DNA of 64,000 nt from Thermocaproicibacter melissae (GTDB taxonomy: Bacteria > Bacillota > Clostridia > Oscillospirales > Acutalibacteraceae), in contig NZ_CP101827.1 in NCBI RefSeq assembly GCF_024498295.1, positions 624,001 to 688,000 of the forward strand, in the 5' to 3' direction. The notes below the pieces were generated by a model that worked only from the letters and a program-made list of their open reading frames with translations, had not been told where the DNA came from and did no database searches. Positions 4,321 through 33,785 of this stretch are shown here, piece after piece. A program made the translations under genes and the position numbers. Every line of letters begins with the position of its first letter. Position 1 is the first letter of the stretch.

Positions 4321-4368
4321 AAATGCTACATGAATTGAATAGGTCTATGAATTAATAGGGGATGACCC

Positions 4369-4418
4369 CCTGCCTTACAAGCAGGGGGTCATAGGTTCGA
4401 GTCCTATTGTTCCCACCA
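4369..4418 (+). pseudogene. 3' part of tRNA-Val(TAC), probable attachment site
   Basis: The anticodon arm CCTGC-CTTACAA-GCAGG, the T arm (ATAGG-TTCGAGT-CCTAT) and the 3' acceptor strand TGTTCCC-A-CCA are intact. The 5' acceptor strand (expected GGGAACA) and a D arm are absent; the preceding bases are unrelated AT-rich sequence. This is the usual product of integration into the 3' half of a tRNA gene, where a complete copy is rebuilt at the far end of the element. Confidence 0.8.
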
Positions 4419-4421
4419 CCT

Positions 4422-4498
4422 GGCTCGGTAGTTCAGCTGGTTAGAACGCTAGCCTGTCACGCTAGAGGTCGTCGGTTCGATCCCGATCCGAGTCGCCA
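4422..4498 (+). tRNA. tRNA-Asp(GTC)
   Basis: GGCTCGG pairs with CCGAGTC (one G-T pair). The anticodon loop CTGTCAC gives anticodon GTC, the T loop is TTCGATC, and CCA is encoded. It is the first intact gene of a four-tRNA run that lies three bases after the tRNA-Val remnant. Confidence 0.95.
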
Positions 4499-4504
4499 TA
4501 ATAT

Positions 4505-4580
4505 GCCTCTGTAGCTCAGTTGGTAGAGCAGGGGACTGAAAATCCCCGTGTCGGTGGTTCGATTCCGCCCGGAGGCACCA
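4505..4580 (+). tRNA. tRNA-Phe(GAA)
   Basis: GCCTCTG pairs with CGGAGGC. The anticodon is GAA in a CTGAAAA loop, the T loop is TTCGATT, and CCA is encoded. Its 3' end is duplicated, with changes, at 5668-5708. Confidence 0.95.
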
Positions 4581-4586
4581 CCGCTT

Positions 4587-4662
4587 GCGAACGTAGCTCA
4601 TCTGGTAGAGCGCCACCTTGCCAAGGTGGAGGTAGCGGGTTCGAGCCCCGTCGTTCGCTCCA
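4587..4662 (+). tRNA. tRNA-Gly(GCC)
   Basis: GCGAACG pairs with CGTTCGC. The anticodon is GCC in a TTGCCAA loop, and the T loop (TTCGAGC) and encoded CCA are present. Confidence 0.95.
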
Positions 4663-4670
4663 ACTTGTCT

Positions 4671-4744
4671 GGCGTCATAGCCAAGTGGTAAGGCAAGGGT
4701 CTGCAAAACCCTGATCCCCAGTCCGAATCTGGGTGACGCCTCCA
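4671..4744 (+). tRNA. tRNA-Cys(GCA)
   Basis: GGCGTCA pairs with TGACGCC. The anticodon is GCA in a CTGCAAA loop, the T loop is TCCGAAT, and CCA is encoded. It is the last gene of the tRNA operon and is followed by a terminator. Confidence 0.95.
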
Positions 4745-22630: not shown

Positions 22631-22636
22631 AAAAGA

Positions 22637-22903
22637 ATCAGCGATGAAGGGAAAAAGTACGTCAACAAACCCGGCAAAGAGAGCCCGCGGTCGGTGTAAG
22701 CGGGTGCGGACCTTGGCGGAAATACATCCTGGAGCTGCAGGCCTGAAAGTTTAGTCCAGTAGGGTCGGCCGCGTGCGCGCGTTACAGCGCAAGGGTATTT
22801 TGTCTTGTACCCGTAAAGGCTGCTGTCGTGAGGCTGCAGTAAACTGAGGTGGTACCGCGGTATATCCGCCCTCTGCAAATTTCGCAGGGGGCTTTTTTTG
22901 TAG
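22637..22903 (+). promoter_or_regulatory. T-box riboswitch controlling tyrS
   Basis: The conserved T-box sequence AGGTGGTACCGCGG lies at 22847-22860, followed by a terminator hairpin (CCCTCTGC with GCAGGGGG) and TTTTTTT at about 22869-22899. A long structured stem I precedes it. TAC at 22723-22725 is well placed as the tyrosine specifier codon. Uncharged tRNA-Tyr binding would stabilise the antiterminator and allow tyrS transcription. Confidence 0.9.
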
Positions 22904-28348: not shown

Positions 28349-28359
28349 TCAAATTTAAA

Positions 28360-28381
28360 AGGTGAAGTTATAACATCACCT
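28360..28381. promoter_or_regulatory. 22-bp palindrome between the gdhA promoter and gene
   Basis: AGGTGA and TCACCT flank a GTTATAAC core, and the whole is symmetrical except for one A/A pair. It lies downstream of the gdhA -10 and upstream of the ribosome site, the place for a repressor to block transcription. Confidence 0.5.
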
Positions 28382-28507: not shown

Positions 28508-28536
28508 TTGACACGACTTTGGAATTAGAATAGAAT
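28508..28536 (+). promoter_or_regulatory. glnA promoter
   Basis: A perfect -35 TTGACA (28508-28513) is 17 bases from TAGAAT (28531-28536). A leader of about 75 bases containing a terminator hairpin separates it from glnA. Confidence 0.75.
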
Positions 28537-28557
28537 AAGAACAATACAGAAGGCGTG

Positions 28558-28606
28558 AAAATAACAAGGAGGTTTTGTGTGGAAAGTCCTTGTTATTATT
28601 TTTTTA
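28558..28606 (+). terminator. glnA leader: Leader terminator (attenuator) of glnA
   Basis: AATAACAAGGA (28560-28570) pairs with TCCTTGTTATT (28587-28597), followed by a T-run, all before the glnA ribosome site. The 5' arm also holds AAGGAG (28566-28571) flanked by AAC and GTT, a small hairpin with A at loop position 1 and G at position 4 as in ANTAR target RNAs. The two structures are mutually exclusive, so ANTAR binding would prevent termination. Termination is seen in the sequence; ANTAR control is inference supported by the ANTAR gene at 29990. Confidence 0.7.
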
Positions 28607-28618
28607 GGAGGGCTCTTT

Positions 28619-29950
28619 ATGCCTAAATATACGCGAGAAGACATCATACGCATTGTGAAGGAAGAAGACGTAAAATTCATTCGGCTTCAGTTTACGGATA
28701 TTCTGGGTACACTGAAGAATGTTACCATTACACCCGGGCAGCTCGAAAAAGCACTGAACAACCAGTGCATGTTTGACGGCTCTTCCATCGAAGGATTCGT
28801 GCGCATCGAAGAGTCCGACATGTACCTCCACCCGGACATCAACACATTTGCGCTGTTCCCCTGGTACTCGCAGAATGGGCGGATTGCGAGACTTATCTGC
28901 GACATCTACCTGCCTGACGGCAAGCCATTTGAGGGAGACCCGCGCCATGTCTTGAAAAAGCAGGTCGAGAGGGCCGCTCGGCTTGGTTATACCTTTAATG
29001 TAGGTTCCGAATGTGAATTCTTCCTTTTTAATACCGATGAGTTCGGACACCCCACTACAATCACGCATGACACGGCGGGCTATTTCGACCTTGGCCCGGC
29101 AGATATGGGCGAAAGCTGCCGCCGCGATATCTGCCTGAACTTGGAAGAAATGGGCTTTGAAATTGAGGCCTCCCACCACGAAGTTGCGTTTGCTCAGCAT
29201 GAGATTGATTTCAAGTACAGTGATGCCTTGTCTGCAGCCGACGACCTTATTACTTTCAAATTGGTCGTGAAAACCTGTGCCGATGCAAACGGACTCTGTG
29301 CAACATTTATGCCGAAGCCGATTACCGGCAGGGCTGGTTCCGGACTTCATATCAATATGTCTCTGTTCCGTGACGGGCAGAATGTTTTCAGCAGTTCCGA
29401 AAATAAAATGGGATTGAGCCAAGAAGGATTGAGTTTCATCGCCGGCGTAATGAAGCACATAAAAGGTATTTGTGCAATTACGAATCCTCTTGTAAACTCT
29501 TACAAGAGGCTTGTGCCCGGATTCGAGGCCCCATGCTGCATTGCGTGGACCACTGGCAACCGCAGCGCCCTGATTCGTATCCCGGAGTCTCGCGGACCAG
29601 CAACGCGGATTGAACTTCGCAGCCCGGACCCGGCCGGTAACCCGTATCTTTCCTTTGCTCTGCTTCTTGCGGCGGGACTGGATGGAATTGAGAATAAGCT
29701 GCAGCCGATTCCGCCTGTTTCGGCAAATATTTACGGCATCAGCGAAGAAGAACGCGTAACCAGCGGAATTGATAATCTGCCGGCAGACCTCAACGAGGCT
29801 ATTTCCGAAATGAAAGCTGACCCGTTTGTCCGGATTGTTTTGGGAGAGCACATCTTCCAGAAATATCTTGAAGCGAAGGAACGCGAGTGGAAGGAATACT
29901 CGGCGACGGTAACGGAATGGGAATTAAACCGATATCTGAGCAAATTTTAG
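28619..29950 (+). CDS. glnA: Glutamine synthetase, type I
   Basis: This 443-residue GSI makes glutamine from glutamate, ammonia and ATP. The motifs DGSSIEGF (near 50), the metal-binding [38 protein letters not shown] and the [15 protein letters not shown] end are present. The short length fits the GSI-alpha type that is not adenylylated. The start at 28619 has AGGAGGG upstream. An in-frame GTG at 28577 with its own AAGGAGG would add 14 hydrophobic residues, but lies inside the leader hairpin. It is followed by an ANTAR regulator. Confidence 0.96.
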
Positions 29951-29989
29951 TTTGCAATAGGAAGAATCCAACCGCGCGGGGTTATTTAT

Positions 29990-30532
29990 ATGAGCAGCAT
30001 TGTCGTGGCAAACTCCAATCCGGTGTTTGCAAAAAGAATAGCGTCTGTTTTACATTCCAGCGGGTTGTATGTCAGCGGGATATTTGTCAGCGGTGCGCAA
30101 TTGATTGATTTCACCAAAAAGCACTATCGCGGCGGAGTTGTTATCAGCAGCGTAAAACTAAAGGATATGCCTGCAGTCAATCTTCCGAGAATCATCGGTT
30201 CAGCCTATGATTTCCTGTTTCTTATAAGCCCGCAGTTTGCAGGAATGTGCAATACAATTGAATATGCAAGTCTGCTCATGCCCATAAACCGTACGAATCT
30301 GCTGTCGACTGTGAATATGTTTTTGAATCTGGCAGAGGTAACGCCACCTTCCGTTAAAAAGAAACTCCAAAGCGGAATCAATGACGAGAAGGCAATTATT
30401 GAGCAGGCAAAAAATCTACTCATCAGCAGAAACAATCTAACGGAACCTCAGGCTCACCGGCTGATTCAGAAGAAAAGCATGGATATGGGCCGTAAAATGG
30501 TGGAGACCGCGATGATTATTTTAATGTCATAA
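29990..30532 (+). CDS. ANTAR-domain response-regulator-like protein
   Basis: This 180-residue protein has an N-terminal domain (about 1-115) with a degenerate receiver-like fold (MSSIVVANSNPVFAKRI); I see no clear phosphoacceptor motif. The C-terminal three-helix ANTAR domain (about 122-178) has EQAKNLLISRNNLTEPQAH and the RLIQKKSMDMGRKM end. ANTAR proteins bind paired small RNA hairpins and stop terminators from forming. In Clostridia they are often next to nitrogen genes. It lies 39 bases after glnA and probably regulates the glnA leader. Confidence 0.85.
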   Translation: MSSIVVANSNPVFAKRIASVLHSSGLYVSGIFVSGAQLIDFTKKHYRGGVVISSVKLKDMPAVNLPRIIGSAYDFLFLISPQFAGMCNTIEYASLLMPINRTNLLSTVNMFLNLAEVTPPSVKKKLQSGINDEKAIIEQAKNLLISRNNLTEPQAHRLIQKKSMDMGRKMVETAMIILMS

Positions 30533-30545
30533 GGAGTCGGTGATA

Positions 30546-31379
30546 ATGAAATTCACAAAAATGCAAGGTATCGGCAACGACTACATTTATATTAACTGCT
30601 TTGAAGAAAAGGTGGACGATCCGTCCGCTTTGTCCATTCGCCTGAGTGACCGCCATTTTGGCATTGGTTCCGACGGGCTTATTCTAATTGAGCCATCTGA
30701 TATCGCCGACTGCAAAATGGATATGTATAACGCCGACGGTTCACGCGGGATGATGTGCGGAAACGGAATCCGTTGTGTGGGAAAATACGTTTACGAGCGC
30801 GGAATCGCCAAGAAAGACGTGTTGACGGTTGAAACGCTGAGCGGGGTAAAAACGCTGAAGCTGAGCGTTAAAGACGGGAAAGTCGGGGAGATCGAAGTCA
30901 ACATGGGAAGCCCGATTCTGGAACCGGAGAAAATACCTGCATCTTTCCAAGGGGAGAAGGTAGTTAACCAGCCGTTGACGGTAGGCGGTAAGGAGTACCG
31001 TGTTACCTGTGTTTCCATGGGGAATCCGCATTGCATTGTCTTTGTTCCGGATACAAAATCCTTGCCAATTGAGAAAATAGGCCCGCAATTTGAGAATCAC
31101 CCCGCATTTCCGGAACGTGTCAACACGGAATTCGTACAAGTGCACAGCGAGCATGAAGTCAGCATGAGAGTATGGGAACGCGGCTCAGGCGAAACGCTTG
31201 CCTGCGGAACCGGGGCGTGTGCAACTGCTGTTGCCTGTGTGCTGAACCAAAAGACGGGGCGCGAAGTGCTTGTTCACCTGCTTGGCGGCGACCTGAATAT
31301 CCGTTGGGATGAAATTTCCAATAATGTATTTATGAGGGGTCCCGCTGAATTTTCTTTTGACGGAACCGTCGAAATCTGA
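30546..31379 (+). CDS. dapF: Diaminopimelate epimerase
   Basis: This 277-residue epimerase converts LL- to meso-diaminopimelate. Both catalytic cysteines are visible: MMCGNGIRC in the N-terminal half and ACGTGACAT in the C-terminal half, with GNDYIYI at the start and WERGSGETLACG. The start at 30546 is best spaced from AAGGAG. It works directly after DapL, which is encoded next, and its product feeds lysine and peptidoglycan synthesis. Confidence 0.95.
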   Translation: MKFTKMQGIGNDYIYINCFEEKVDDPSALSIRLSDRHFGIGSDGLILIEPSDIADCKMDMYNADGSRGMMCGNGIRCVGKYVYERGIAKKDVLTVETLSGVKTLKLSVKDGKVGEIEVNMGSPILEPEKIPASFQGEKVVNQPLTVGGKEYRVTCVSMGNPHCIVFVPDTKSLPIEKIGPQFENHPAFPERVNTEFVQVHSEHEVSMRVWERGSGETLACGTGACATAVACVLNQKTGREVLVHLLGGDLNIRWDEISNNVFMRGPAEFSFDGTVEI

Positions 31380-31429: not shown

Positions 31430-32659
31430 GTGCAAAAATTGCTGAAAATCAACAACAACTTTGCAAAACTTCCGGCAAATTACCTGTTTGTCGAAATTGC
31501 AAATCGGGTAAAGAAATATCAGGATTCCCATCCTGACGCAGAAATTATAAAACTTGGAATTGGTGATGTGACACGGCCACTGCCGAAAGCAGTCGTGGAT
31601 GCAATGAAGAGGGCTGCCGACGAGATGGGCAACGCTTCGTCATTCCGCGGCTACGGTCCGGAAGCTGGCTATCTTTTTTTAAAGGAAGCAATCGCGAAAA
31701 ATGATTTTCAAAGCAGGGGAGTGGACATTTCACCCGATGAAATCTTTGTAAGCGATGGAGCAAAGAGCGATACAGGCAGCATCGGGGATATCCTTGGTAT
31801 AGACAACGTGGTCGCAGTCTGTGACCCTGTATATCCGGTTTATGTCGACACCAACGTCATGGCCGGCCGAGCCGGAGAGTATATTGAAGGAAAAGGCTTC
31901 AGCAAGATTGTTTATATGCCTTGCCGCAAAGAAAATCATTTCCTTCCTGAACTTCCAACACAGCAAGTAGATATGATATACCTGTGTTTCCCGAACAACC
32001 CGACCGGAATGGGAATCGACAGGGAAAATCTAAAAAAATGGGTTGATTATGCCTTAGACAATCAGTCGTTGATTCTTTATGATGCTGCTTATGAGGCATT
32101 TATCACGGATCCGGATATGCCGCACAGCATTTTTGAAATCGAGGGCGCAAAGAAATGCGCAATTGAATTCCGCAGCTTTTCAAAGACTGCAGGCTTTACG
32201 GGAGTCCGCTGCGCTTATTCCGTGATTCCGAAAGAGCTTGTCTTTGACGGCGTTTCCCTCAACAAACTTTGGGACCGTCGTCAGTCTACGAAGATGAACG
32301 GTGTTTCGTACCCCGTTCAGCGTGCAGCCGAAGCCGTGTACTCCGAAGAAGGCAAGCGCGGCGTTCGCGAAAATATCGAATATTACCAGAACAATGCGAA
32401 AATCATGCTGGACGGCTTAGCAAAAGCAGGATTTGAAGTCTATGGCGGAACCAATTCGCCTTATGTTTGGATGAAAGTGCCGGACGGCCTTACTTCCTGG
32501 GAATTCTTTGATCTGTTGCTTGAGAAAGCCAACGTTGTCGGAACCCCCGGCTCCGGGTTCGGTTCCTGCGGTGAGGGTTATTTCCGCCTGACTTCCTTCA
32601 ATACAAAAGAAAATACGCAGAAGGCTGTCGAACGAATTGTAAAAACGTTCGCGAAGTGA
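31430..32659 (+). CDS. dapL: LL-diaminopimelate aminotransferase
   Basis: This 409-residue class I aminotransferase makes LL-diaminopimelate directly from tetrahydrodipicolinate, so the organism probably needs no acylated DAP intermediates. The N-terminus ([26 protein letters not shown]), the FPNNPTG motif and the PLP-lysine segment [15 protein letters not shown] are characteristic of DapL. It starts at GTG 31430, with AAGGAAGGG upstream. Tetrahydrodipicolinate shares its precursor pool with the DpaAB pathway encoded earlier in the window. Confidence 0.94.
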
Positions 32660-32708: not shown

Positions 32709-33785
32709 ATGAAAGCTTACCTGATGCTTGAAAACGGTGCCTGCTTTGAGGGGCAGGGGTTCGGTTGTGAACGCGACACGCTGTGTGAAGTTGTGTTCAA
32801 CAGCGCCATGTGCGGCTATACCGAACTCCTGACCGACCCTTCCTATGCCGGGCAGGGTGTTGTTATGGCTTATCCGTTAATTGGAAATTACGGCATTTGT
32901 TACGACGACTCGGAATCCATTAAGCCCTGGCTTTCCGCATACATTGTCCATCGAATTTCTGATGTTGCAAGCAACTTCCGCAGCGACGTAGATCTCAACA
33001 CATATCTCAAGACAAACGGCGTCCCAGGTATTCAGGGTGTGGATACCCGTGCCATTACAAGAATCCTGCGTGAAAGCGGGACAATGCGCGGCATGATTGC
33101 TTACGGGGACCATGTTGACCGTGAAGCAATGCTTAAGAAGATTCATGCTTTTCAAATGGTTTCCATGGTTCCAATGGTAAGCTGTAAGGAAACGTCTGTC
33201 TACGGGGACGGACCGGTTAAAGTTGCTCTCATTGATTACGGCGTGAAGAACAACATCATCCGCTCTCTCGTAAAGCGCGGCTGTACAGTAAAGCGTTTTC
33301 CGCATGATACCTCCTTTGAGGAACTGCAAACATTCAACCCGGATGGAATTATGCTTTCCAACGGCCCTGGCGATCCGAAAGAATGCAAAAAAGAAATTGC
33401 AGTCTTAAAGCAGGTTATGAAAAGCGGAATTCCTACGTTTGCAATTTGCCTTGGGCACCAGTTAATGGCACTCGCCCATGGCTTTGACACATATAAACTG
33501 AAATACGGCCACAGAGGCATCAATCATCCTGTTAAAGACCTTTCTACGGGCAAGGTCTATATTACTTCCCAGAACCACGGATATGTGGTAGATGGGAAAA
33601 CTGTCAATCCTTCAGTCGCGGACATCGGTTTCATCAGTATGAACGATGGCAGCATTGAGGGATTGAACTATAAAGGCGGGAAAATCTTTTCTGTTCAATT
33701 CCATCCGGAAGCTTCGCCCGGCCCGCTTGATACAGGCTTTTTGTTTGACCGTTTTCTCGATTTGATGGGAGGGAGCCTTCTGTGA
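32709..33785 (+). CDS. carA: Carbamoyl-phosphate synthase small subunit
   Basis: This 358-residue glutaminase subunit has an N-terminal CPSase domain (GNYGICYDD) and a class I amidotransferase domain with the catalytic cysteine in AICLGHQLMA and histidine in QFHPEASPGP. It supplies ammonia from glutamine to CarB for pyrimidine and arginine synthesis. It overlaps carB by four bases. Confidence 0.96.
   Translation: MKAYLMLENGACFEGQGFGCERDTLCEVVFNSAMCGYTELLTDPSYAGQGVVMAYPLIGNYGICYDDSESIKPWLSAYIVHRISDVASNFRSDVDLNTYLKTNGVPGIQGVDTRAITRILRESGTMRGMIAYGDHVDREAMLKKIHAFQMVSMVPMVSCKETSVYGDGPVKVALIDYGVKNNIIRSLVKRGCTVKRFPHDTSFEELQTFNPDGIMLSNGPGDPKECKKEIAVLKQVMKSGIPTFAICLGHQLMALAHGFDTYKLKYGHRGINHPVKDLSTGKVYITSQNHGYVVDGKTVNPSVADIGFISMNDGSIEGLNYKGGKIFSVQFHPEASPGPLDTGFLFDRFLDLMGGSLL

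Follow-up and report, generated by a model that had tools for sequence, protein, structure and literature searches.

Can a single hexaloop hairpin be sufficient for antitermination by an ANTAR protein? This question is raised by the glnA leader of Thermocaproicibacter melissae, which lies in a 64,000-nt stretch of DNA analysed here as a whole (the window). In the eutP leader, both hairpins, their A1 and G4, and the length of the linker matter in vivo, as described by Ramesh et al. (PMC3369931). Deletion of the upstream hairpin P1 ablated the control by EutV in vivo (PMC3369931), which counts against a single-hexaloop reading. Walshe et al. 2022 (PMC8934654) reported that the EutV dimer binds one hexaloop at a time, and that isolated P1 and P2 bind alike. 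They regarded the second hexaloop as a recruitment site, needed given the limits of transcription speed and time, and called for bioinformatic work on single-hexaloop sites. The original prediction for the window was that the glnA leader and the adjacent ANTAR protein form an antitermination switch. This proposal is supported in silico by the conservation of the leader, its co-occurrence with ANTAR domains, the kept contact residues of the protein, and the covarying terminator arms. It is quite probable that an ANTAR protein controls the leader by antitermination, that it does so through one hexaloop, and that its pseudo-receiver senses a nitrogen signal.

The features of the locus are listed in Table 1. 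The individual elements of the prediction were all recovered: the promoter, the terminator hairpin before glnA, the hexaloop AAGGAG (A1, G4) overlapping the 5' arm of the terminator, and the ANTAR gene directly downstream of glnA. The 51-nt stretch 28560-28610 has a predicted fold of -13.3 kcal/mol (z -3.44), and none of 200 shuffles was as good; longer folded stretches from 28541 gave a weaker signal (z -1.84 and -1.36). A consensus terminator scan omitted this terminator, presumably since it considers only loops of 8 nt or less. The hexaloop hairpin and the terminator use common bases in the 5' arm, and are mutually exclusive. By-eye comparison with the eut 13-mer AGCAANGRRGCUY (PMC3369931) showed that 11 of the 13 positions match the window hexaloop. 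A hexaloop with three base pairs is weak evidence alone; its conservation in the relatives adds weight.

Table 1. Features of the glnA leader and the downstream gene row (window positions).
Feature	Position	Strand	Evidence
Sigma-70 type promoter of the glnA operon, TTGACA-17-TAGAAT	28508..28536	+	11/12 consensus matches
Intrinsic terminator	28561..28605	+	5' arm 28561-28570, 3' arm 28587-28596, and a U-rich tail ending at 28605
ANTAR-type hexaloop hairpin AAC-AAGGAG-GTT	28563..28574	+	A at 1, G at 4, 3 pairs
Ribosome binding site of glnA, AGGAGG	28606..28611	+	sequence
glnA, type I glutamine synthetase, 443 aa	28619..29950	+	TIGR00653, 547 bits (cut-off 429)
ANTAR protein gene, 180 aa	29990..30532	+	Pfam PF03861, 54.9 bits (cut-off 27.3)
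dapF, next gene of the putative operon	30549..31379	+	TIGR00652
LL-diaminopimelate aminotransferase gene	31430..32659	+	TIGR03542
carA	32709..33785	+	TIGR01368

The gene row runs from glnA through the ANTAR gene, dapF, and the LL-diaminopimelate aminotransferase gene to carA, and is followed by a 1071-aa frame, which was taken for carB. Leaders of the window's kind, with an AAGGAG-like hexaloop in the terminator 5' arm, are referred to as type 1. No ANTAR domain (PF03861) other than that of the window was found in the genome, and the only convincing type-1 leader of the genome lies in the same gene row. A wider type-1 regulon in this genome was considered and rejected, as the second-best match (E 0.003, C1:314073) looks like a plain terminator. 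Several other elements were observed in the window. A GTG lies 6 nt 3' of the leader AAGGAGG, and opens a frame (28577-28618) through the terminator into glnA, giving 457 instead of 443 aa; the 457-aa length also occurs in one relative (L040), and was by eye absent in L047 and L054-L057. The divergent gdhA leader (28354-28381, minus strand) has, by eye, a 6-bp hairpin and a short T-run, and no A1/G4 hexaloop was seen in it. Rfam identified a T-box leader at 22635-22876 (RF00230, 122 bits) and a cluster of five tRNA genes at 4358-4741.

The prediction noted a single convincing ANTAR-type hairpin, and none further was found in the window leader. The relatives likewise show no excess of second hairpins. 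P1-like hairpins (A1/G4 hexaloop, at least three pairs) between the -10 box and the hairpin were found in two of the 28 type-1 leaders examined, while 1000 shuffles gave 2.6 on average; the 29th leader (L174) is cut at a contig end and was left out. In a smaller set, the count was 2 of 21 against a shuffle mean of 1.6. A conserved P1 in the type-1 leaders was thus rejected both by eye and by script. The single hairpin is a regular feature of type-1 leaders, where the first reading had seen a gap in the evidence. Because a second hairpin was sought and not found, the window leader is not classed as a dual-hexaloop ANTAR RNA, although it most likely works like one.

Relatives of the window ANTAR protein were identified by protein search in 82 of 398 genomes of the family. 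Among 23 window-like glnA-ANTAR loci, the window included, 15 contain the type-1 motif and 8 do not. A covariance-model search had been suggested as a check of the prediction. At the gathering threshold, no Rfam family matched the window leader. A model built from the 15 motif-bearing leaders and searched in the same 398 genomes matched 26 genomes with E values of at most 2.5e-6, and 11 of these genomes lie outside the training set. At E 0.1, weaker matches occur in 197 of the 398 genomes, as any terminator model would give. Twenty further matches were inspected. Fourteen have the motif, upstream of glnA, carA or dapF; the six weaker ones (E 1e-5 or worse; L170, L172, L173, L176, L177, L178) are plain terminators without the hexaloop and were left out of the resulting 29 leaders. 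One of these six, the match in G281 (E 1e-5), is accordingly not in the count of 26 genomes, which ends at E 2.5e-6. Both carA and dapF belong to the window's own gene row. The leader directly precedes dapF in two relatives (L167, by TIGR00652; L168, by equal layout), and precedes carA in three (L165 and L171, by TIGR01368; L166, by equal layout).

Of the 29 type-1 leaders, 27 have the loop AAGGAG, and AGGGAG and AAGGCG occur once each; the search pattern admitted only such loops. Three stem pairs are formed in 25 of 29, and in the other four an A faces a C at the second pair. The promoter, TTGACA with a -10 box with one mismatch, is present in 28 of 29 (the window counted), and the 29th ends at the contig end. 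The motif is kept while much of the terminator loop drifts. In the 15 leaders, the terminator arms covary: nine cells are changed on both sides, a value that none of 500 shuffles reached. The number of covarying pairs was three, which was matched by 153 of 500 shuffles. No covariation was detected for the pairs of the 3-bp hairpin, where every shuffle reaches the observed values.

Some loci differ from this layout. Six glnA-ANTAR pairs (L001, L002, L042, L043, L045, L048) have the promoter, and by eye neither a terminator nor an AAGGAG hexaloop. Thus, the gene pair can exist without a type-1 leader. The L043 leader has a stem next to the ribosome site, and translational control is possible. 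In two carA leaders (L165, L166), the type-1 hairpin lies about 100 nt after the promoter, with other possible hairpins between; these leaders are longer than the glnA leaders. The leader of the type-1 glnA in L063 is also longer, and contains a hairpin GAAC-GAAGGC-GTTC, with G at loop position 1, similar to the type-2 hairpins described below.

At ANTAR loci beside a more distant glutamine synthetase, another kind of leader was found (type 2), with the consensus ATGARC-AANGRY-GTTCAT and six pairs. A terminator follows the hairpin, and its 5' arm consists of the loop and the 3' half of the hairpin. The type-2 model was built from five leaders and contains no promoter. It matched 102 of the 398 family genomes at E 0.02; in the order, it matched 58 of 197 genomes at E 0.001, and 55 of these 58 belong to 16 other families. 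The window's own genome has no type-2 match at E 0.02. In total, 85 type-2 leaders were read, 67 from the family and 18 from the order sample. The family set gave 116 matches, and 70 of the top 75 were read; the five skipped were two reverse-strand echoes, two matches at contig starts, and one second match in G083. Three of the 70 were then removed, two without a hexaloop by the picking rule (L197, L200) and one misassigned (L243). From the order sample, 19 of 59 matches were read, and one without a hexaloop (L256) was removed.

A promoter within one mismatch of the consensus was found in 69 of the 85 type-2 leaders, against a shuffle mean of 0.16 and a maximum of 1. The distance from the -10 box to the loop is 11-18 nt in 58 of these 69, intermediate in nine, and at least 30 nt in two. 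Transcription begins about 7 nt after the -10 box, so the mRNA would begin at the hairpin or within a few nucleotides of it, which would leave no room for a preceding recruitment hairpin. The second stem pair in the 67 family leaders is G-U in 52 and A-U in 15, and never G-C, which suits an RNA rather than a DNA operator. The seventh pair is paired in 45 of 67, a number that none of 500 shuffles reached (their mean is 34.5); the inner six pairs are too invariant to test, and are no more paired than in shuffles. In full-length folds, the 3' arm of the hairpin pairs into the terminator in 46 of 67, an undercount since the cut at the first T-run shortened some leaders. The loops, mostly AAAGGC, have A1 in 65 of 67 and G4 in 67 of 67, frequencies partly forced by the picking rule. 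When ten type-2 loci were compared with Rfam up to E 1, six matches were obtained, none of which reached the gathering score; they are of unrelated kinds, and some of them lie over the leader.

The genes behind the type-2 leaders serve nitrogen and glutamine metabolism. The first genes after 66 family leaders (single-linkage clustering) comprise 44 for the amidotransferase subunit of glutamate synthase, 18 for glutamine synthetase, two for CTP synthase, one for an aminotransferase, and one asparagine-synthetase-like gene. Pfam confirmed one member of the glutamate synthase group (G031) and another such gene (L225), two of the glutamine synthetases, the aminotransferase, and three CTP synthases (the two above and one in L207); the asparagine-synthetase-like gene was assigned by eye. 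In G031, the row contains a split glutamate synthase, glnA, and the ANTAR gene. Single type-2 cases also occur before gdhA, where the gene in L096 has a hexaloop leader (L096 4439-4526), and before a type III glutamine synthetase gene.

Both kinds of leader co-occur with ANTAR domains. The base rate of PF03861 is 230 of 398 genomes in the family (58%). An ANTAR domain was found in 25 of the 26 type-1 genomes and in 10 of the 11 held-out ones, without correction for kinship; the other 15 trained the model and were picked for having the ANTAR gene. For type 2 (E 0.001), the family counts are 76 of 80, or 71 of 75 once the five genomes used for training are removed, and the order sample gave 56 of 58 against 114 of 197 overall, again uncorrected for kinship. 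Related genomes are not independent, so that Fisher tests on these counts exaggerate the significance, and many of the leaders lie in the same gene row as the ANTAR gene. The ANTAR-negative genome with a type-1 leader (G219) retains the two terminal parts of an ANTAR gene that has decayed, in the gap from glnA to dapF (L159). A decayed remnant at the same place was also found in G336 (L161), where the type-1 leader is intact and an ANTAR domain is present elsewhere. Type-2 leaders in ANTAR-negative genomes occur in G083, G147, and G277, which are 75-86% complete, and in G261, G474, and G489, which are 94-99% complete, so that incompleteness is no explanation for the latter.

The window protein is a member of the ANTAR family. 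Its AlphaFold2 model, made with an alignment including 20 of the 81 collected ANTAR proteins, has a pLDDT of 91.9. The N-terminal part is predicted to have a receiver fold; receiver domains were matched at Z about 14, and Rv1626 at 13.3. EutV is not among the 50 structure matches listed, which says nothing on kinship. At the positions of the EutV pocket, D9 is replaced by N, D10 by S, D54 by S, and K104 by M. The phospho-acceptor D54 is absent in 25 of 25 type-1 and 27 of 30 type-2 proteins. Judged from its residues, the window protein is not a phosphorylated response regulator of the EutV type, as it has neither the phospho-acceptor Asp nor an acidic pocket. The hexaloop contacts K149, E160, and M172 of EutV are kept in 81 of 81 ANTAR proteins. 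The position of Y164, which in EutV stacks on G4, is His in 80 of 81, and G4 could be recognized in a different mode. In the window protein, the positions of R142 and R177 are Lys, and other contacts are lost (R168 to Gln, N173 to Asp, R175 to Gly, K143 to Ala, and K147 to Gln).

Based on these analyses, the following mechanism may be proposed. Transcription of glnA would start at about 28543, and by default would stop at the leader terminator. Under nitrogen shortage, the presumed activating state, the ANTAR protein, made from the same transcript, would hold the AAC-AAGGAG-GTT hairpin; in relatives, a trans-acting ANTAR homologue may do the holding. The held hairpin would occupy the terminator 5' arm, no terminator would form, and transcription would continue through glnA and the ANTAR gene itself, probably as far as dapF-dapL-carAB. 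A single hexaloop would be enough, and the P1 of the EutV, AmiR, and NasR leaders would be dispensed with. In type 2, a 5'-terminal hairpin would be exposed early and need no recruiter. For type 1, with its short terminator loop, another reason would be needed, such as a constitutively dimeric protein. The pseudo-receiver beside glnA, together with the analogy to AmiR-AmiC, suggests that the sensor input may be a metabolite, or feedback-inhibited glutamine synthetase, to which the protein binds directly.

Other explanations might account for parts of these data. The leader could be an ordinary dual-hairpin ANTAR leader, in which the first hairpin is degenerate or was missed. The 20 nt from the expected +1 to the hairpin in the window could just hold a hairpin of 12 nt with a short linker, a 7-bp hairpin with ACTGAA lies upstream in L053, and Ramesh et al. 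(PMC3369931) predict ANTAR leaders before glutamine synthase genes. However, P1-type hairpins in type-1 leaders are no more frequent than in shuffles, and most type-2 leaders begin at the hairpin itself, so this explanation is considered quite unlikely. A real attenuator under non-ANTAR control, for example by a leader peptide translated from the leader's AAGGAGG, is also unlikely. That sequence is a perfect ribosome binding sequence, with a GTG in frame with glnA in the window and L040, and type-1 leaders persist where no ANTAR gene adjoins glnA. Nevertheless, no start codon was seen by eye at that spacing in L047 and L054-L057, and none is conserved; the type-2 loops are not ribosome binding sequences, and nearly all held-out genomes with strong type-1 matches have an ANTAR domain somewhere (10 of 11).

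For type 2, the inverted repeat at +1 might instead be a DNA operator of a GlnR-like repressor, linked to ANTAR by neighbourhood only. The position at the transcription start and the near-palindromic arms would fit such an operator, but the second stem pair (G-U or A-U, never G-C), the asymmetric centre with its fixed orientation, and the terminator that shares the loop and the 3' half all argue for an RNA element. The operator is therefore highly improbable. Returning to antitermination by a single hexaloop, a broader reading is that the whole nitrogen-assimilation regulon of the order (glutamate synthase, glnA, gdhA, pyrG, carAB, and type III glutamine synthetase) may be controlled in this way. 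The commonest hairpin would then be the 5' end of the mRNA and serve both recruitment and antitermination, and a phosphorylation-dead receiver would read nitrogen directly. We lean towards this broader reading, with less confidence than for the glnA leader.

As natural candidates for single-hexaloop sites, and with their overlap with terminators, these leaders make the question of Walshe et al. directly testable. If true, an order-wide single-hexaloop regulon would break the rule of two obligatory hexaloops. The leaders also suggest that a large ANTAR regulon escaped searches in which two hairpins were demanded. Among the open papers searched, none was found that deals with glnA antiterminators of the single-hexaloop kind, or with ANTAR leaders of this order; the excerpts of PMC8164766, PMC9170634, and PMC3369936 contain neither. 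A clean sensor problem is also posed, namely what a receiver without the Asp detects beside glnA.

Comparison with the known systems shows both similarities and differences. In Clostridium saccharobutylicum, the gene of the ANTAR regulator NitR lies downstream of glnA, as does the ANTAR gene in the window. The window leader resembles the eut leaders of Enterococcus faecalis, the targets of EutV/EutW, in the A1/G4 hexaloop, the closing C-G pair, and the overlap with the terminator 5' arm (PMC3369931, PMC8934654). However, the eut leaders contain two hexaloops and require both in vivo, and the window leader has one. Like EutV, the window protein combines a receiver fold with an ANTAR domain and keeps K149, E160, and M172; unlike EutV, which is phosphorylated at D54, it has no Asp there and has His for Y164. 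Pseudomonas aeruginosa AmiR is also an ANTAR antiterminator with a pseudo-receiver (PMC8934654), but it is regulated by AmiC and has a two-hairpin target (PMC3369931), whereas the window gene adjoins glnA and dapF and has one hairpin. Ramesh et al. 2012 predicted ANTAR leaders for the genes of glutamine synthase and glutamate synthase, and these are also mentioned in PMC3369936. The present leaders agree with these predictions in the proposed control of nitrogen assimilation genes by ANTAR attenuation; the search model of Ramesh et al. was built from dual-hairpin leaders, with which one-hairpin leaders would score poorly.
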